64,000 bases of DNA, taken from Symmetrospora coprosmae. Its lineage: Eukaryota > Basidiomycota > Cystobasidiomycetes > Symmetrosporaceae. The stretch lies in NCBI GenBank assembly GCA_008802785.1, contig VUYT01000011.1, positions 372,001 through 436,000 of the forward strand. The letters run 5' to 3'. The notes under the pieces were generated by a model. The model was not told where the DNA came from, searched no databases, and worked only from the letters and a program-made list of their open reading frames with translations. The position numbers were made by a program, and so were the translations under genes. Shown here one piece after another: positions 43,660-54,213 of this stretch. Numbering within the stretch: position 1 is the first letter of the stretch; each line of letters begins with the position of its first letter.

Positions 43660-44323
43660 ATGGCTTCATCAGGTGTACGTGGTGCTCCGTGTGTCGCTCG
43701 TTGTGCCTGTACACGGCTGACCGGCGAGGGTCCCGCCGCAGTGGGAGGTCCGATACAGCAACTCGCGCCAGCGCCCTTACTTTTACAACGAGTCACAGTC
43801 CCTGTCCATCTGGGAGCCGCCTACGTCGCTCTCCGAGGACGACATTGTCAACCTCCCGGGCGCGAGGGAGCACCTCCACCGCAAGCCAGACCCGGACACG
43901 GTCCAGGCGAGCCACCTACTCATCAAGCACAGGGATAGCCGCAGGCCGGCCTCGTGGAAGGAGGTGCGTGCTCGCTGTACCGTGATACATGTAATGTTGT
44001 CACTGCGAGAACGCTGACGCCCCGAGTGACCCGCCCCGCAGCCCATGATCACGCGCACAAAGGACGAAGCCATCACCGAGCTCAAGCAGCACCAGTCCCA
44101 CCTCCTCTCCTTGCCCTCCTCCGACCTCCCCGCAGAGTTCGCAAAGATCGCATCCACCGAGTCGCACTGCTCGTCCCACTCGCACGGGGGCGACCTAGGC
44201 CCCTTTAGGCGCGGACAGATGCAGAAGCCCTTCGAGGACACGACGTTTGGACTCGAGGTGGGACAGATGAGCGACATCGTAGAGACAGACTCTGGGGTGC
44301 ACCTCATTCTCAGGACGGCCTGA
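43660..44323 (+). CDS. ESS1: Parvulin peptidyl-prolyl isomerase Ess1/Pin1
   Basis: Isomerase acting on phospho-Ser/Thr-Pro bonds, best known on the RNA polymerase II C-terminal domain. Three exons keep frame: 43660-43674, 43742-43963 and 44042-44323, giving 172 residues. Exon 1 codes only MASSG; the GTACGT donor and CCGCAG acceptor give an in-frame join to WEVRYSNSRQRPYFYNES, the WW domain, ending IWEPP. The PPIase domain has ASHLLIKHRDSRRPASW, with the His and the Lys/Arg/Arg phosphate pocket. It also has STESHCSSHSHGGDLGPF, with the catalytic Cys, and SGVHLILRTA, with the second catalytic His. All key residues are present. Confidence 0.95.
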
Positions 44324-44640
44324 TTCTCCCGAGACGAGATAGACGGGCATGTATGCAGCCGAGCACAGCGTGCAGATCATGGACCGCCCAAAGCACGCAG
44401 TCCCTGGAGGACGCGCGTATACTGCTGCTCGTTGCATCTCGCTCTGATCACTGACTATGCTGACTACTGTCGCATGACGGCCTGCAAGCACACACGAGCT
44501 GACAGACTGATGCTTGAGCTTCGTTTCCCAAGACCGCTGGCCCGTGTGAACCAGACAGGTCGGCAACAGTCCCCTTGTGGCCACCCAACGAATCGACCGT
44601 CGAGGCTGCGCAAGCTGGAGTACAGCGTAGGACCCTCCCC
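44277..44640 (+). repeat. Duplicated block, first copy (ESS1 3' end plus downstream flank)
   Basis: This stretch is highly similar to 47204-47560. It includes the last codons of ESS1 and then non-coding flank such as ctgctgctcgttgcatctcg and gacaggtcggcaacagtccc, shared by both copies with few differences. It forms the upstream region of the zinc-finger gene that follows. Confidence 0.85.
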
Positions 44641-44803
44641 CCGCTCGGCTTGGCACACCCTGGCCTGCCGACTGGCCAGGCAGGCAGGGTCGCCGGTCTC
44701 CTCTGCTTCCACTCCACTACACAGACCCACTCCGTCCACCCCTCGCATCAGCCCACCCTAGCTTCTGCATACCTTCAGCATAGACACACGAGATCGCAAC
44801 ATC

Positions 44804-46704
44804 ATGGCGAGCTCGATACCACCCGCTGTCAAGGAGCGTCACCCCGATTACCCCGATGACCGCAGCAAAGATCGATTCCTATGTGGATGGCCGGAATGGT
44901 GTGTCCACGATGTAAAAGCTCTTGTTGACGCATACGCCTAACACTTCACGCACTCGTGACTGTTGTAGCGAACTCGACAGGCAGCGAATACCTGGATTAG
45001 CAAGTGCTAAAAGCCGCAAGACACACTATCAGCGACACCTGAACCCAACCGAGAAGAAGAAGAGTGGGTTCCAACAGGTAGAAGCATGCGGAACTTGGTG
45101 CGCCCTCACCTGATCAGTGAGGCCCTCGCTCGTATCCCATTGCAAGCTAATGGCCCGTCCATTCAGCCCTGGTGAGTTTCACAAGGGAGCACTTCCCCAG
45201 CATCGAAACTCCTGTAGGAGGGGACCCTACGACGAAAAAACCGGATACTACCTCTGCGGGTGGCCAGGCTGGTAAGTGTAGGCTAGAGGCCCTGCTAGCA
45301 CTGAAGCTGCCTCGAGGCGTGCGGAGTTCATGACACACATCTCACACGCGACGTATAGTCCCTCAACGGGATTCAAACATCTGAGAAACCGTACCGATCA
45401 TTATGGCGATCAGCACGGCTTCCGAGCTCCTTTTGATGATCCGGAGACCCCTTTGCAGACCTGCGACTGATGAGGAGCGACTCACATGTGAGCAATGCAG
45501 GACACAACTGATAGGAATCTATTCTCCTTCTCAGCGGACTTGAGATACCACGAAGCGCCTTCAGTCGTCACCACAGTCATTGCAAGAGAGGGAGCCACCC
45601 TGTCAAGGACGCAGAAACGGGAGCCCTGCTTTACTTTTGTGGCCACAAGATATGTCCGTGAGTACCGCTGCCAGCGGACGACGTTCGACGGCAGCCTTTT
45701 CGTGCGCGATCAAGCTGAGGACGTCGATACCGGACACGCCTTGTCGCGCATGCAGCTTGGATCAATCAAGGGTCTCAGGCTGGAAGGGCACAGGGCCACA
45801 AGCCCACCACTGGAAGATCTACCATGACGGTAAGGGTCCGGCCGAGGTCTCACCGGACCGCAGCCAGTCCGGCTCTGGATCGCTCAACCGCCGCGGCCCA
45901 TCACCTGTAGAGAGAGGACGATCGTCTCGCCGCTCTCCGAACTCAGAGTCACCTTCGAGATTTGCAGGGTCGTCCAGCCAAGCGCAGTCACACGATCGCG
46001 GGAGACCCCGGGAGAAGGGCAAGGGTCCCGCAGTTCCGACACACTCGCAAAGGCCCCCTACTGGCTACGACGTTTCTTCCTACGGGAGCTCTTCGAAGGG
46101 AGGTTACGGCGTTTTAGCAAATGACATCCGTCCAAGCAGCTTGCATGGTGCCGCTCGACCTCCTCCGGGTGTAGCTCCGCCCCCGCCACGTCCTCCTTCA
46201 ACTCCAAGCCCATCAGAGTACGCTCGGATGGGGTCTCCTGGCTCTGTCAGATCAATTTCCTCAAACTCAGGCTACCGAGTCCCTGTGAGTGTCCCATCAA
46301 GCAGCCTGCACTCTGCCGCCCAGCCTCCTCCGGGAGTACCTCCGCCCCCGTCACGCCCCCCTTCAACTCCGGGTTCATCAGCGTATGATCCTCGGATGGG
46401 ATCTCCCGCCTCCGTCAGATCACTTTCGCGTCCCCCGAGAGTACCGCCGCCACCGCCACGTCCGCCATCTACTCCAAGTCCAGCAGCGTACGCTCAGTTG
46501 GATCGTCGGCGTCACTCGAGATCAAGATCAGCGTCCTCTAACGCAATTCATGAAGGACCTGCAAATGTCTCTTCAAGTAGCCTGCAATTCGCGGCACGGC
46601 GTCCTACGAGAGTCCCTTCGCCACCGTCGCGTCCGCCATCTACTCCAAGTCCAGCAGCGTACGCTCAGTTGGATTTTTGGCCGCCTGCCGGCCCTAGTGG
46701 CTAG
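44804..46704 (+). CDS. Zinc-finger/Pro-rich paralogue, copy A (probably partly decayed)
   Basis: Paralogue of the gene at 47737. Supported exons include 44804-44898, 44969-45077, 45147-45271 and one from 45359, with the tail in the frame ending at 46704. Fingers seen: RFLCGWPEC then KTHYQRH (C2H2); a C2HC half QHRNSC preceded by ACGTWC; YYLCGWPGC then RTDHYGDQH (C2H2); AFSRHHSHC (C2HC half); and LLYFCGHKIC then AHHWKIYH (C2H2). Introns cut the second-Cys codon (TG/C or TG/T) in the first and third fingers, as in copy B. Two places do not splice cleanly: a stop follows ACGTWCALT, and another follows PLQTCD, so the finger array may be decaying or use unusual sites. The tail is intact and holds three or four repeats of a Pro-rich unit (PPPGVAPPPPRPPSTPSP). 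Confidence 0.5.
46459..46674 (+). repeat. Exact 45-bp repeat pair in the Pro-rich tail of copy A
   Basis: Identical 45 bp blocks at 46459-46503 and 46630-46674 encode RPPSTPSPAAYAQLD twice. Perfect identity at third codon positions points to recent duplication or gene conversion within the tail. Confidence 0.9.
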
Positions 46705-47203
46705 CCAGCTCGTCCATCACGGTCGGGGGCGTACACCATCAGTCGCCGTCGCCCATTGGGCTCCCTCCATTCCAACGAAGACGTTCTCCGCCTTCTAGCA
46801 GCAGTGACTACAGCGGTCGAGGGCGACCCTGAGAGAAACGGGTCCGTCGCTCTCTTCGTCTTCAACCGATCGCAGAGTACGGCATCAGAAGGAGGCGGAC
46901 AAGATTTTGCGACGGCTTGACTAGGAGCTTGTACATGCCAGCCTGTAGTCTAAAGAGTTCTCTACGCCCAGCCTCGGAGCAACTCATTCCACTGAGAGAC
47001 TAATAACACCTCTCCAACAGTCAGGGCACCTTCATTTACGAGTAGGCTGCCTGCCCCTGTACATTACCGACGCACGTAGCAGCGCCAAGATCGTCAAGCT
47101 TGCTGTTCAGATCATCAATAACGCCATTGTTCCTGCCTGCAGACCATCAGCCATTTACTCCGATCCTGCCATGCCGGACAGAATCGGCAGCCAGCTCATC
47201 GGT
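46705..47203. other. Spacer between zinc-finger copies
   Basis: The 3' flank of copy A up to the duplication boundary. A frame resembling the Ser/Arg-rich end of copy B's tail continues for a short way past the stop of copy A in another frame (to about 46,920), suggesting the original tail was longer. No separate gene was seen. Confidence 0.45.
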
Positions 47204-47251
47204 ATCGTAGAGCCAGACTCTGGGGTCCACCTCATTCCCAGGACAGCCTGA
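47204..47251 (+). pseudogene. ESS1 3'-end fragment
   Basis: Fifteen codons plus stop reading IVEPDSGVHLIPRTA match the end of ESS1 (IVETDSGVHLILRTA), including the catalytic His position. Nothing of ESS1 is recognisable upstream, so it is a passenger fragment that marks one end of the duplicated segment. Confidence 0.9.
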
Positions 47252-47560
47252 TGCTCGACAGGAGATGGGCGTGTATTGCAGGCTAGCACCGCGTGCAGAT
47301 GGGAATGGACCGCTAAAGCACGGAGTCTCTGGAGGACGCGCGCATACTGCTGCTCGTTGCATCTCGCTCTGATCACTGACTGCGCTGACTACTGACGCGG
47401 CAGGTCCTGTATGCCTCAAGGAGCTGACCGAGACTGGTGCCTGAGCTTCGTTTCCCAAGACCGCTTGCCCGTGTGAATCAGACAGGTCGGCAACAGTCCC
47501 CTTGTGGCCACCCAACGATTCGACCGTCGAGGCTGCGCAAGCTGCATTACAGGGTAGGTC
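47204..47560 (+). repeat. Duplicated block, second copy
   Basis: Counterpart of 44277-44640. Similarity fades after the shared segment gaggctgcgcaagct. The block precedes copy B at about the same distance as the first block precedes copy A, so promoter and gene were copied together. Confidence 0.85.
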
Positions 47561-47736
47561 CACCCGGCTTGGTCTGCCTGACCACATGGACCAGTCAGGC
47601 GGGCTCGCTCCTTTCCTCCTCTCGTATTCCGGGTGGCCTCTGATCATCGCCATTAGCGTGCAAGCAAGCTGTCTGTCGGATTGCACCCATAAAGCATAGC
47701 TCGCAACCCTACCGCCTGACACTTCAGACGACTGCC

Positions 47737-49426
47737 ATGAGTGCACATCCCGAGTATCAGCAGGAGCCCTGCGAAGTCTGGTGCCTTTTCACCGGAACTA
47801 TGTGTACATGTCGCCCTGAGCTGACCAGCATTCTGATGCACTAGCAACGCCCTCGTCAGTAGGAACAACCTCAAGAGCCATCGAGGGGCCTGCGGGGGCG
47901 GTCCGTTCATTGATGGCTTATATCATTGTGGCTGGAGTGGCTGGTGAGCATTTTCCACTGCTTGACGAAGAGCCTCTAGGCTCACCGATGCGATCAATGT
48001 ACCGGACTCGTCTGCTTTCTTGTCCCCGCGGGGCCGCGTTAGCGAGGCGTCATCGCAAGGATTCAGAACTCTGCAACTCCGTACTGTCCACTACGAGGAC
48101 CAGCACTACTATCTGGGCCCTTTCGAAAAGATACCGGATCTTCGACTGTGCGACAACTGGTAAGTTGCCAGGCCCCGTAGCTCGGGTCGCGACAGATCTG
48201 GACCAATATTGCAGTACGCCCATCCGAATTCACCAGCGAGATGTATATCCCCGTCCCAAAGTACGATAGCCATCACAGGAAGTGTCTGGAAGGACCCATT
48301 CCTGTTCCGGACCGTACGGGTCGGTTGCGTTACCTCTGCGGGCACGAAGGCTGCTCGTAAGTATCGCTCTGCGAGGCACGTCAGAGCAGCGGTCTAGAAG
48401 GAAGCTGATATTGCCAGTGATCACATTGTTTCGCGTCTTGCAAGTCAAAACGATCCGACTTTGGTTGTCTCGGGTTTTCTGACCAGGAAAGGGCGTGTCG
48501 ATCACTGGAACAAGTACCACAAGAAGCAGCGGCCGGGCTACGGTCAGCGAGGCCCTTCAGTCCAACGCAGCGTTGAGGAGCGAGGCTCGGGGTCGCCTCC
48601 CTCAAAGTCAGGCGCACCTTCAGAACCTGGGGCCTCATCCGGTCAAGGCGCACCTTTGCGGGTTCGCGGGAGATCCCTTTCGAGGCCGGCGGATACCGGT
48701 AGCCCCGGTCGCGTATCTGCGTCTCATTACACTGGACGAAACTCGAGGCTACCATCGAACACAGGCACAGTCCTGAGCGCCATAGACCCGTCTAGTCAGG
48801 CGACGAGATCCAGCGGAAGGCCTCCCAAAAGGCTAGAATCGAAGGGCAAAGGTCCCGCAACCTCGAGAAGCTCGCAGAGCTCCTCTTCAACATCACCTCC
48901 GCCTCCACACTCCGCCGGCTCTGGTGGCCCTGTTTCTAGCGCAAGCGCGAAACCTCGCGGTCCGCCCCTTCAGCGTACAGGACCTCCCTCCGCAAGCGGA
49001 AGCCGAACAGTTCCGCAACCGACTTTTACGCACGCCACTGCTCAGAGCCACTCTGCTTCGGCTGACTCATCACGCTCACTTACGGAGCGGTCCCCACTAG
49101 CGACTGCGCCACGTCATCCATCGCCCAGAGGATCTCCAATACGCACTCGTGAGACATCACCGAGATCGAAGAGTACGGATGGTCCAACCGTCGGCTCGAT
49201 CGGCTCGAGCTCAACGCATCAGATCACACCGTCCACCCGAACTCCGCCGCATGTGCCGTCGTCCCTAACACTGCCGCCTTTCAAACGGGGATGGTCTACG
49301 TCGTCTAGCAGCGAAGGTAGCAGGAGCAGAAGCCGGGACAAGACGGGCATGTCAAACAGGTCCGCCTCATCGTCGTCCCAGACAGCCCAGCGAAAGGCAG
49401 CGAAGATCCTGTCGCAGCTCGACTAG
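47737..49426 (+). CDS. Alternating C2HC/C2H2 zinc-finger protein with Pro/Ser-rich tail, copy B
   Basis: No known family recognised. Five exons keep frame with GT-AG introns: 47737-47801, 47860-47943, 48043-48159, 48237-48356 and 48445-49426; 455 residues. Four fingers alternate in type. Finger 1 is C12-x3-C16-x12-H29-x3-C33. Finger 2 is C45-x4-C50-x15-H66-x4-H71 (YHCGWSGC ... HYEDQH). Finger 3 is C86-x2-C89-x11-H101-x3-C105. Finger 4 is C123-x4-C128-x20-H149-x4-H154 (YLCGHEGC ... HWNKYH). All four introns are phase 2 and fall inside a finger: in fingers 2 and 3 they split the second-Cys codon, in finger 4 the next codon, in finger 1 a few codons later. From about residue 160 the protein is Ser/Pro/Arg-rich and disordered, with a KGKGPA motif shared with copy A. 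Nucleic-acid or protein binding is inferred. Confidence 0.75.
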
Positions 49427-49670: not shown

Positions 49671-52600
49671 TCACCAACGTCGCGGTACGAGCGAGCCCTC
49701 GCAAATGCCTCGTTGGCGGTGTCGAGTTAGGGCATCGCCTCGTGCGAATCCCTTGCCGCTGTGAAGAGTAAGGTGTAAGATCAGCGACTGCAGGAGATCA
49801 GTGTGGCTTCCACACCGAAGACGTACCAGGCACATTCGAACGGTTTTGAGCCAGAGTGAATGCGAACGTGACGGGTCAGGTCGTGCGATCGGACAAAGGA
49901 GGCACCGCTGGACGACAACAAGGGGATCAGTACAAGCATGACAAGTCATAGGCACAACACCACTCACCAGTCGTCGTACGGGCAGGCAAACGGCTTGTCC
50001 TCGAGATGCGTCTGGATGTGACTCTCCACAGCCGACTTCCTCGGGAACTCCTTGAGGCAGCCAGGTATCGCGCAGATGTAGACCCTCTGCGGCCTCCCCT
50101 TCTTGGTCTGCCGGTCGCCCGTGCTGATGCTGTAGAAGCTGGCCAGCGTGTCTTTGGATAGACCAGCCTGCTGCAGCTGGAGCGCGGCCAGGCTTGCAGC
50201 CTCCGGGTCGGGGGACGGCGAGAGTGCAGACTGGGAATGGCTGCTGACGCTCCCGCTCGCCATGCCGGAGCCGTACGTCATGGGCAAATGCGGGACAGGC
50301 GGTGCGTTTGCCGCCACAACAAAAACGGACTGGCGAGCAGCTTGCAGATTCGGCAGCGAGGTTTTGGGTTTTGGGCCAGGACGGAGACGGCCAGGACTGG
50401 CGCCGCTCAGGCTGGGATTTGGCGACTGCGCGAGCGTGTTCAGCCCGACGCTTATCGACCGCTTCTTGGCTGGTGGCTGATGTCCGAGGTAGACACCCTG
50501 CTGATACTGCCCATTGCCGTTCTCATCGCCCCCATAGTCCTCCTCGTCCTCCTCGTCTTCGTACTCGGACGCATACGCGTTGCGGCCGCGCTTGAGCGAT
50601 GCTTTGCGCGGTGTCGGCGAGTGCAGGAGCTCTGCAAAGTTTGGGCTCGTACTTTGCTGTTGTTGCTGATAGAGGGCGCCGAGATCTGGTGCACTGCGCA
50701 TGCCCTGCAACCGACGAGGCGAGGAAATCGGCCGACCAGACTGGGAGAGCTCCCCATACTGCGGGTTATGCGAAGGGTGAGACTGCTGCTGCGGACTTCC
50801 GTAGAAGGAGGCCGTCTGCTGCGAATGTGGACTGAGCAACGCATGATTGCCGACTGAGCTTTGGGAGATCTGCCGCAAAGCAGGGTCGATGTTGCTGCCG
50901 TCCGTTCTCTGCGAGATGCCTGCGCTCTCGGTCTCGTTAGAAGGCGGTGCCCACCACGTCGACTGCGCGTGCTGATGCGATGGTGACGGCGCATTTGAAG
51001 CGCCTCCTTGGAAGCTTGGGCTGTGGGGTGGACTGACGAAACTGTGTCCTGGAGGCGCATAGAGCCGTGGCGGTTGAGCCGAAAGGAGCGCATTTATATT
51101 CATCTGCTCTTGATACGCCAAGTCCTGCTGGAGCTGCATCGGGTGCTGCCCGAACCGTGCTGAATACAGGGCATTGCGTTCGAGTAACGTCGCCAATGCC
51201 TGGTCAACGGAGCTTGGCTCGCCCGGCTCAAAGAAGGACGGTGAATTGGGACCAGCAAAGAGCGAGGCCATCTCATCGGTCACGGACGAAAAGACGCTCG
51301 AGTATGTCGAAGTCGTCGATAATGGGCCCGGGCTGAGGTACTCGCCGCGCCCGCCGTTCCGAGCACCACCGGCGCCACTTGATGAGGAGACGGACCCGGC
51401 GGACGAGCACGACTCAAGGCCCGGTGTGCGCGGGAGCCCGAGGGCAGCAGCAAAGTCGTGATGGTTGCCGTTGGTCACTTGTGCGCTGTAGTTCTCGTAG
51501 TCTTCGAGACTGAACTCGAATGCGGGCGGAGGAGCAAGCCCGGTGGTCGAGTACCCGCCGTGCCCCGTCGCTGCTGAGGCTGCTGCCGCTTTCGCAGGCG
51601 AGGCCAGGCGATGGGGCGACCGGGACGACATCGTGGACGTGGCCGTGATAGGCAGGGTCAGGGGCATGTCTCGCTTGGACGGGCTCATCCTGATTGGGAC
51701 CAGCTTCGACGAGTCGCCGCTGCCTCCTGCCGCCGTGTTGATGGAGAGCTTGTTGCGGTTTCGGGCAGCCGCGGCTTTGGCAGCGGGCGAGTTGGGCGGC
51801 ACGTACTGGATGAAGGGCTTGTTGAGGTTGGACTGCTTCATCACCGGAGCCTTGGCTGATATCGGTGCCGCTGCCGTTGCTGGAAGCTCTTCCTCTTCCT
51901 CCTCCTCCTCGTCGTCCTCCTCGTCAGAGTTGTTGACACCCGGCGGGCACGTGCTCGCCAGTTGCGCCTCCTCATCTCGGCTAGGGACGGGCACGGGTGG
52001 GAAGCTGAGATGCGATACAGGTGCATCCACATCATGCACATGCTTCAGTCCCCTTCCGAGCGTGACGGTGGGCAGGTGCTCCGGGTACGGCAGGAAGGCC
52101 GCCCCTCCGTTGCCCGGCAGAGGCGCATTGGCAGGGTCCGCACCTGGAGAGGCGCTGCGGGCCAGCGGGCGGCCATAGATGCGCATGCAGCCATAGTCGA
52201 GCTCGCTGAACGCTGCTCCCGGTATGCCTAGGCCAATGTTGCTGCTGGTCGGCTGCTGCAGCTTGCTCGAGCTCGCCTTGCGCGAGGCGGCTTTGCGCTT
52301 GGTTGTGGCAGCGGCAGCAGTGGCAGCGGCAGCAGTGGCAGGTCGTGCTGCAGCAGAGGGTGCCTCATTGGCAGGCTGCACTGCGGGAGCCGGTGCTGGC
52401 ATGGGCGGTAGCGAGATCGCTGCGGGAGCTGACTGCATGCGCGACATGGCCGTGGATGTGATGGAGGGAGCCAAAGGTGCCGAGTTGTAGCACCACTGCT
52501 GCTGTGACTGTGGTTGCTGTGGATCCTGCAAAGAGACTGCCTGCGTGTGCTGCTGCTGCTGCTGCACTTGTTGCTGATATGATGGCTGCGAGTAACTCTG

Positions 52601-53293
52601 CTGCATCTGACTTGACTGCTGCTGGTACGGCTGATGCTGCAGCTGCCGCTGCGTCTGTTGCTGAGGCTCGTGCCGCCGCTGTTGGTACGGCTGTAGAGGT
52701 TGCAACGGCTGGAAGACTGAGTGCTGCCGCTGTTGGTAAGCCTGCAATACCTGCTGATCCTGTTGCGGCGGGTGTTGAAGCGGCTTCAAGGGCGACGACT
52801 TGGCAGGACTCGTATTCAGCGTCCCTTCGCCCGATGCACCGACCTGATTCATCTGCACGCTGTAGCCCGTCGCAACAGCTCCCCCTTTCCGCATCATGCC
52901 CATGGGGCTGGTCAGATAGCCTCCTCCCATGCCCACGCCGTCCAGGTGCGACTTGAGCTTCTTGATGGTACTCGGCTGCGGCGAGCCGAGGTTCGCATTT
53001 CCCACCGCGAGCTCCTCTCCGTCCTCGTCGACCGCAAACGCTGGCTGGTGCGCTTCGCTTCCACCCCCGATCCCTCCTGCTAGGCTTGCCTGCAGCCCAA
53101 AGCTGTACATGGGGCTGCTGCCCCGCCCAACCGTCTGCAACAGCGCGCTGCTGTCGAGGTCGTACGCTTCGCCTGTCAGGCTGAAGGCAGTGTTGATGTC
53201 AAACTCGTAGTTCTGGTGCTGGTCGTGCCTGTGCTCGTGACTCGCCAGGGGCGCATCGTAGCCGGCGTCCTCAAAGTCGTTGTCTGAATACAT
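49671..53293 (-). CDS. Ace2/Swi5-like C2H2 zinc-finger transcription factor
   Basis: Exons are 49968-53293, 49827-49907 and 49671-49758, all in frame; about 1,164 residues. The long N-terminal part is Gln/Ser/Pro/Ala-rich and disordered, with acidic patches (DEEDDEEEEEEEL) and many SP/TP sites that could be kinase targets. The C-terminus carries three fingers. Finger 1 is YICAIPGCLKEFPRKSAVES followed by HIQTH. Finger 2 is FACPYDDCGASFVRSHDL followed by TRHVRIH. Finger 3 is FECACGKGFARGDALTRH with RQRGIC, a C-x-C ... H-x5-C form. The sequence HIQTHLEDKPFAC, the FVRSHDLTRH finger and the variant third finger ending in IC are the Ace2/Swi5 signature. In yeast these factors drive daughter-cell and cell-separation genes. 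The protein ends 10 residues after the last finger. Confidence 0.9.
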
Positions 53294-54213
53294 GTTGTTG
53301 TTGGCTGTGGCCGGACATTGAAGGCAAGCGGCAAGCTAATCAGTCAGAGCGAGAGGAGGCGCCAGAGCACAGCACGTTAAGCAATGCTCACCTGAAGATC
53401 TATGTATGGCCCAGCCTCTGTCCTGACGCTCGGGTTGCCGTAGGAGCAGGATGGATACCAAGCTCTCCCGTCGCAAGGAGCGCTTTCTCCGATTGCGTTC
53501 CCGGCACAACCGCTATCTGTATGTTGTGTTATTTGCTTGACTGCCACGAGAGCTACGGCAGCGACGCAATGCAGCTCCGGTGCTGCCTGTCGGATTGTTG
53601 CGGCTGGGGTTGTTTGTGTTGTGTTGCAGGCCGGACTGGACCAGATCGGCACGCAGGTCGGTCCCGGCTCGGACGCAGCCGATGTTTTGAGCGGCAGCGA
53701 AGGCACTACCGTACGCCAACTGTGCTGCTCTCGCTATGCTCCTACTTATCCTGCTGGACTCTTCTGTCCTGCTTCGTGGATGCTGAGGTTGCTGCGAATC
53801 TTGGTGGTCAGCAGCAGCACCAGCGGCAGCGTCAACCGTCGAGACCGTCAGTGGCAGAATGCGCAAGTGCACGCGGTGATAATAAACATGGTCAGAGAGG
53901 GGAAGTCTGGCCTGCTTGGTCTTCGCCCGGGTCAATGAGGGATTGTTTGGCCTCGATGTGCATGCCTCGACTTGCATGCCTCTCTGGCATGCCACAGGTC
54001 TTCGCGGGGGCAGAAAGGCGTTCGGCCAGGGAGCGCGGCTTTTCAGATGACGTCTGGATGCAATGCTTTCATCGCAGTCCATCTTTTTTGCTGTCCATGC
54101 ATGAAGGTTGCTGTTGCCTGTGGATGCGCAGCTGTCCGCAGTGGCGCGTAGAGTGCCCGCCTCACCGAGCTGCTGCTGGACGCCTGCCAATACCACGCCG
54201 CAGCAGCACCAAG
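53294..54213. other. Divergent intergenic region, zinc-finger factor / CIA30
   Basis: About 900 bp. A plus-strand frame is open through much of it, but its translation is rich in Cys, Trp and Arg with no motif and no splice support, so I treat it as leader or promoter DNA. Confidence 0.5.

Follow-up and report, generated by a model that had tools for sequence, protein, structure and literature searches.

The window analysed here, a 64,000-nt stretch of the Symmetrospora coprosmae genome, contains two tandem copies of a split zinc-finger gene. Copy B begins at an ATG at 47737 on the forward strand and encodes an array of four Cys/His clusters; a four-intron model yields a single open frame to 49426. 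Its tandem paralog, copy A, lies upstream on the same strand (44804..46704), and an ordinary three-finger C2H2 gene adjoins copy B on the reverse strand (49671..53335, the span of the listed frames). An ESS1/PIN1-type gene, identified with phmmer, occupies approximately 43660-44323. The end of this gene and the upstream region of copy A (44264..44634, forward strand) are duplicated 5' of copy B (47192..47561, forward strand) with 85% identity, the duplicate beginning within an ESS1 tail fragment. The flank common to A and B, with the end of the ESS1/PIN1-type gene in it, shows a tandem duplication of the stretch. The tail fragment itself (47192-47256) forms the border of the tandem duplication.

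The copy B model has exons of 44, 99, 117, 120 and 1009 nt, the last ending with the stop at 49426, and introns of 64, 99, 77 and 61 nt, and no single exon contains an entire finger. Exon 1 (47737..47780) carries the start codon, the first Cys of finger 1 and the tg of its second Cys. Exon 2 (47845..47943) encodes the end of finger 1 (C2HC) and the start of finger 2 (CGWSG), exon 3 (48043..48159) the end of finger 2 (C2H2) and the start of finger 3, and exon 4 (48237..48356) the end of finger 3 (C2HC) and the start of finger 4 (CGHEGC); exon 5 (48418..49426) supplies the end of finger 4 and a basic Ser/Pro-rich tail up to the stop. All features are on the forward strand, and all four predicted introns are phase 2. 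Intron 1 (47781..47844) lies in the second-Cys codon of finger 1, introns 2 (47944..48042) and 3 (48160..48236) lie within the second-Cys codons of fingers 2 and 3, and intron 4 (48357..48417) falls one codon past the second Cys of finger 4. The acceptor of intron 4 is ambiguous, being 48417 or 48444, with the frame kept by either. Finger 4 is oddly spaced, with 29 residues between Cys2 and His1.

The original prediction, made from this sequence, placed all four introns in phase 2 and each within a finger, which agrees with our model apart from the location of intron 1. We also agree with it that introns 2 and 3 interrupt the codon of the second Cys (tg|c) and that intron 4 falls in the codon that follows. 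Its intron 1, set six codons past the second Cys and leading into an 84-nt exon, is probably misplaced. We modelled the corresponding donor at 47802 and dropped it for 47781, which matches copy A; the intron 1 options of the earlier reading measure 43-58 nt, and all 50 introns modelled in the family are longer (61-231 nt). The donor at 47781 (tg|gtgcct) and the acceptor at 47844 (cactag|c) are preferred because their join forms the second Cys of finger 1, the resulting spacing (C-x2-C-x11-H-x3-C) is that of copy A, and a 64-nt intron suits the family's intron lengths; the donor, gtgcct, is weak and was picked by comparison with copy A. Three of the four predicted introns thus probably split a second-Cys codon, with the fourth one codon later. 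The internal exons are all multiples of three, as had been proposed, and the sizes of 117 and 120 nt stand, while the 84-nt exon, which resulted from a different intron 1 acceptor, becomes one of 99 nt. The even fingers do share Y-x-C-G-W/H-x-x-C, and the alternating order of C2HC and C2H2 fingers is retained, although it is better described as a repetition of C2HC+C2H2 di-finger modules.

Copy A is modelled with five phase-2 introns (forward-strand exons 44804-44898, 44969-45097, 45167-45271, 45359-45469, 45535-45657 and 45756-46704) and one finger exon more than copy B, encoding an extra N-terminal C2H2 finger. Its intron 4 (45470..45534, forward strand) has an AT donor (tg|atgagg), and an in-frame TGA is met unless an AT-AG intron is spliced; a rare AT-AG intron, truncation to a three-finger protein and recent damage are the candidate explanations. 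The frames past the in-frame TGA are open for 356 codons, despite the AT at the conserved intron donor.

Protein searches of the 20-Mb assembly and one gap pattern allowed us to model ten genes, and the census is a lower bound of at least ten. Besides A and B in the window, there are eight genes on contig C1 at four further loci: C and D (C1:237-250k), F (C1:266.5-269k), G and H (C1:402.7-405.7k), and I, J and K (C1:159.8-164.6k). The number of finger positions per gene is two in H, J and K, four in B, G and I, five in A, six in F, eight in C and 14 in D. The count for D assumes that D and a downstream part are one gene; its eleventh exon stays open and runs into another four-finger part, so that D may be a single 14-finger gene. 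The start of gene H is uncertain, and both of its intron phases were corrected to 2. Protein searches show good sequence kinship among C, D and F and modest matches between loci for copy B (best match to another family locus D, E 6.1e-5) and for G/H (best match D, E 5.6e-4). Used as assembly queries, the I, J and K modules found only their own locus at E up to 10; with no sequence match elsewhere, the membership of these genes rests on layout, module consensus and a weakly resolved tree. They came from the gap-pattern search. A pattern with a fixed C-x3-C spacing, which was wrong, found nothing, and the corrected pattern gave 10 matches, versus 1+1 for the reversed control, nine of the 10 being at family loci. 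The tenth (C22:924336) gave candidates in a loose exon scan but no convincing finger, and none in the strict scan described below, and was dropped. Among protein-search matches, C40:31090 (E 0.10) has no exon in the loose or strict scan and was likewise dropped, and there is a further match at C65:557018 (E 0.008). The tail of gene C contains a CAG run (C1:237150-237200, L019) encoding about a dozen Gln, and a conserved D-P-R-K-R-x-x...W...N-A-R/G-W stretch, recognized by eye, follows several modules of C, D and F (L019, L020, L059).

The ten models contain 51 finger positions, made up of 25 C2HC+C2H2 modules and the orphan finger of copy A. A predicted intron is present at 50 of these positions, the exception being finger 3 of gene I. 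The phase is 2 in every one of the 50; 45 introns interrupt the codon of the second Cys (tg|c or tg|t) and five are one codon later (one each in A, B and H, two in G). With all joins in phase 2, every internal exon (n = 40) is necessarily a multiple of three, and 35 of the 40 are 75-300 nt long. Introns range from 61 to 231 nt (median 82, n = 50). Of their donors, 48 are GT, that of F intron 1 is GC and that of A intron 4 is AT; the acceptors are CAG in 34, TAG in 11 and AAG in five (n = 50). The GC donor of gene F reads tg|gcgagt (L059, C1:266577). By eye, all four ligands are kept at 49 of the 51 finger positions; finger 3 of C and of D is degenerate, having the first two Cys only, with the His and the last Cys missing. 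Within modules, the linker from the C2HC to the C2H2 finger is 11-22 residues in the measured modules and 33 in one, and it ends in W-P in 17 of the 25; between one module and the next, the linkers measure 2 to 388 residues. The family's linkers are not of the TGEKP type. If retained, the intron would bring a stop into the codon directly following the split codon in 33 of the 50 cases, which follows from tg|gtrag being read as TGG TRA, and would provide no in-frame stop in three of the 50.

Splice sites were partly picked to restore Cys, which biases the models toward the pattern; the controls that follow reduce this bias, but do not remove it. A strict exon scan, requiring an acceptor, H-x3-4-H/C near the exon start and C-x2-8 before tg|gt, recovered 31 donors in the five family regions (5, 15, 5, 1 and 5), versus 0.45 expected in total from shuffled sequence (means per region 0.00, 0.20, 0.10, 0.05 and 0.10; 20 shuffles each). 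Elsewhere, it recovered two in the window's other 58 kb and one in the rest of L060, with none in L061, L063 and the rest of L062. A CTRAY branch-site motif is present in 32 of the 50 introns, versus 7.4±2.5 (maximum 15) in 200 shuffles.

The proposal that exon cassettes are duplicated or lost in frame is supported by the sequence of several genes. In gene G, a 494-nt direct tandem repeat with 70% identity comprises a whole module, with two exons and two introns, and the paired introns are alike at 48/68 and 58/77 aligned bases (z 6.8 and 9.6). Over the part in which the two are collinear, gene D exceeds C by one module (exons 8 and 9), and copy A has its extra exon. The original prediction took a single finger cassette as the duplicating unit; the unit is usually an exon pair instead, encoding a C2HC+C2H2 module. 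Introns are also alike between C and F (z 4.8-9.0), while the likeness is mixed between C and D (z 1.5-6.5) and weak between A and B (z 1.3-4.4). A module tree of 23 of the 25 modules (C2 and D2 left out), in which four of 20 inner branches are starred and many branches are long, gives good support to A1+B1 (97/92) and G1+G2 (99/99). Differences at the three codon positions are 0.42, 0.39 and 0.56 for C/D (dN 0.54, dS 1.93), 0.37, 0.34 and 0.52 for C/F (dN 0.46, dS 1.51), 0.40, 0.41 and 0.64 for A/B (pN 0.40, pS 0.79, saturated), 0.20, 0.17 and 0.27 for the G modules (dN 0.20, dS 0.46), and a nearly equal 0.51, 0.51 and 0.54 over 39 codons for J/K (dN 0.84, dS 1.08). Third positions differ most in all five comparison totals, which is coding-like in four of the five and unclear for J/K, and dN is below dS in the four comparisons having finite dS.

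A profile of 21 of the 25 modules, leaving out C2 and D2 (degenerate), I2 (long insert) and G2 (near copy of G1), has as its best match in the PDB the fingers of GLI (2gli, E 2.9e-10), followed by Aart (8e-8), PRDM9 (2.4e-7) and TFIIIA (3.7e-6), and also matches WT1; for GLI, Aart, PRDM9 and TFIIIA, the best stretch spans one finger in each case. Searched by itself, copy B gave neither a PDB match (best E 0.61) nor, at E up to 10, a match to a classical-finger Pfam family. No Pfam family reached its cut-off in the 13 proteins or parts scanned, the best classical-finger score being 19.0 bits for zf-C2H2_4 (cut-off 27) and the best score overall 23.6 for DUF7565 (cut-off 27.1). When modules were scanned singly, nine of 21 matched zf-C2H2_4 at E up to 1 (best 0.0002), and B module 1 had no Pfam match. 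Matches to UBZ, XAF1, MYST, HypA and DUF7565 are all under cut-off and were set aside. The earlier reading knew of no described family of this layout. The array is not foreign to known zinc fingers, as the module set leads to classical C2H2 fingers in the PDB, though copy B on its own does not; judged by profile, the family's fingers are divergent classical C2H2 fingers. The 21 modules share the consensus C-x2-C-x3-F-x5-L-x2-H-x3-C-x2-G-x2-P-x5-G-x3-W-P-C-x4-C-x3-F-x5-R-N-x-H-x4-H, in which the eight ligands are invariant and the Arg occurs at 90% or more. Cys2 and His1 are separated by 12 residues at 13 of the 25 C2H2 positions and by 13 to 29 at the others (C2, D2 and I2 assigned by eye), and 10-14 residues precede the His at 23 of the 25 C2HC positions, C2 and D2 being without a His. 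Ser, Pro and basic residues abound in the tails, and a script search returned at least one basic cluster within the last 200 residues of eight of the ten proteins (all except D and K). A PR/SET match was not found in the whole of B, two parts of A, partial C, D, F, G, I, J and K, and one module of H. The proteins are probably nuclear.

The ordinary C2H2 gene adjoining copy B has phase-2 introns (49967-49908 and 49826-49759, reverse strand) in the second-Cys codons of its fingers 2 and 3, so the family does not have this intron position to itself. It resembles the family in these splits, in the symmetrical 81-nt exon between them and in its last finger, which is C2HC (finger 2 is C2H2), but differs in having an unsplit finger 1, short linkers of the classical kind and a long frame (1123 codons, stop to stop) before the first second-Cys intron. 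A link between this gene and the family, for example as source or sister, is plausible. At ten other ordinary PF00096 loci, chosen from 61 matches partly on the basis of matches that were truncated or closely spaced, the second-Cys codon is split in none of 28 fingers (by eye); five of these fingers seem to have an intron elsewhere (L074, L075, L076, L079, L081), and other introns were noticed in linkers.

We consider it likely that the ten genes form one family of split-finger modules that grows and shrinks by exon pairs. Each protein would be a chain of di-finger modules, with a C2HC finger, a linker and a C2H2 finger in each and the basic Ser/Pro-rich tail last. With a phase-2 intron at the second Cys or one codon past it, most fingers would obtain a ligand codon through splicing, and an internal exon would complete one finger and begin the following one. 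Exon pairs, together with their introns, would be duplicated or lost through recombination in introns, and the phase-2 joins allow such gains and losses without a frameshift. More tentatively, and as a possibility that we would put well below the module history itself, this is a lineage-specific nuclear family in which nearly every finger is made by splicing, exon-pair swaps set finger number, regulated intron retention could cut the array after a chosen finger, and the neighbouring C2H2 gene is an ancestor or sister.

Other histories could be read into the same layout. The introns could have been inserted independently and repeatedly at a favoured second-Cys site, rather than copied with the exons; the neighbouring ordinary gene is split alike in two of its three fingers, different finger types have the one position, and the introns of A and B are barely alike (z 1.3-4.4). 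We regard this as unlikely, given that the introns of the G modules (z 6.8 and 9.6) and of C and F (z 4.8-9.0) are alike and that none of the 28 fingers at the ten other ordinary loci is split there. It is about equally improbable that several splice sites are misplaced and that the real transcripts encode fewer or differently spaced fingers. Some donors are indeed weak (gtgcct, gtaaat), five acceptors are AAG, intron 4 of copy B has two acceptors and 18 of the 50 introns lack CTRAY in the scanned range, yet the motif is found in 32 of the 50 against 7.4 expected, and the same joins yield the same ligand pattern across genes. The least probable of these readings is a decaying cluster, in which the arrays are relics whose finger number drifts without function: long tail frames are open, 49 of the 51 positions have all four ligands, dN stays under dS in each of the four comparisons for which dS is finite, and upstream blocks are conserved in several pairs. 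Decay would account for the AT donor and in-frame TGA of copy A, the degeneration of finger 3 in both C and D, the low identity that paralogs show, and the nearly equal change at the codon positions of J/K.

As to what the module family does, the likeliest function, at about even odds, is that of nuclear nucleic-acid-binding proteins, whose reach or specificity would vary with finger number; this function is inferred. The main rival on function keeps the same family and exon history and has the fingers recruit proteins, as in FOG1, which we hold to be somewhat less probable but a serious contender. Half of the fingers are C2HC, between-module linkers vary from 2 to 388 residues, and FOG1 likewise mixes C2HC and C2H2 fingers; on the other hand, the C2H2 half is nearest by profile to the DNA-binding fingers of GLI, WT1 and TFIIIA, and the tails are basic.

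Multi-finger proteins usually alter finger number within one exon, as in KRAB-type genes. A family whose finger number changes by symmetrical exon pairs, with 2 to 14 finger positions per gene within one genome, would allow exon shuffling to be studied as a compact natural test where introns are short, and raises the question of whether splicing itself controls finger number. Retention of an intron would end the array at that finger. Like the family, classical C2H2 fingers (GLI, TFIIIA, WT1; PF00096) have these zinc ligands, similar profiles and a nearly invariant Arg three residues before the His1 of the C2H2 finger; the family departs from them in scoring under the Pfam cut-offs, in its alternating C2HC fingers, in lacking TGEKP linkers and in having an intron for nearly every finger. 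Judged from titles and the starts of abstracts, the only close match to this gene anatomy among the papers listed is teleost Piccolo b (pclob), in which split-finger exons of 702-1350 bp (zebrafish) are described as duplicating singly to 8 to 16 copies in frame 0, and the protein as synaptic, with CXXC-type fingers (four CXXC pairs) (PMC3484663). In both systems a finger spans an intron, exons combine the end of one finger with the beginning of the following one, a single frame is used throughout and copy number varies, in Piccolo b by exon gain or loss. In contrast to Piccolo b, the family has C2HC and C2H2 rather than CXXC-type fingers, phase 2 rather than frame 0, and mostly an exon pair as its unit; the Piccolo-type CXXC finger family is absent from the Pfam matches of the family proteins or parts scanned. 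By analogy, the family works like the Piccolo b arrays without being a member of them. According to the sections consulted, FOG1 combines a PR domain with nine fingers, which include C2HC and C2H2 fingers of classical type, so that both finger types occur in one protein as in the family; a regular split-exon di-finger repeat is not described for it there, and PRDM-family proteins are said to be absent from fungi (PMC4146578). A basidiomycete C2H2 survey counts introns and duplications; the sections consulted describe no such layout, and the term 'C2HC' appears 0 times in the main text (PMC12295980).

Upstream blocks are less diverged than the coding parts in several pairs, with such blocks also present 5' of C, D, F, I, J and K. 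The regions upstream of A and B (44264-44803 and 47192-47736) are 81% identical over 448 columns, reaching 93-95% in three of nine 60-nt bins, and this block stays conserved while A/B synonymous sites are saturated. Blocks are also conserved between C and F (81% over 207) and between J and K (74% over 205). The cause may be strong constraint on the promoters or a gene conversion confined to the upstream part, and conserved upstream sequence beside diverged coding sequence hints at rapid change of the binding part under common regulation. Gene I has a 42-nt upstream match with gene F, and G and H have only a 30-nt upstream piece in common.
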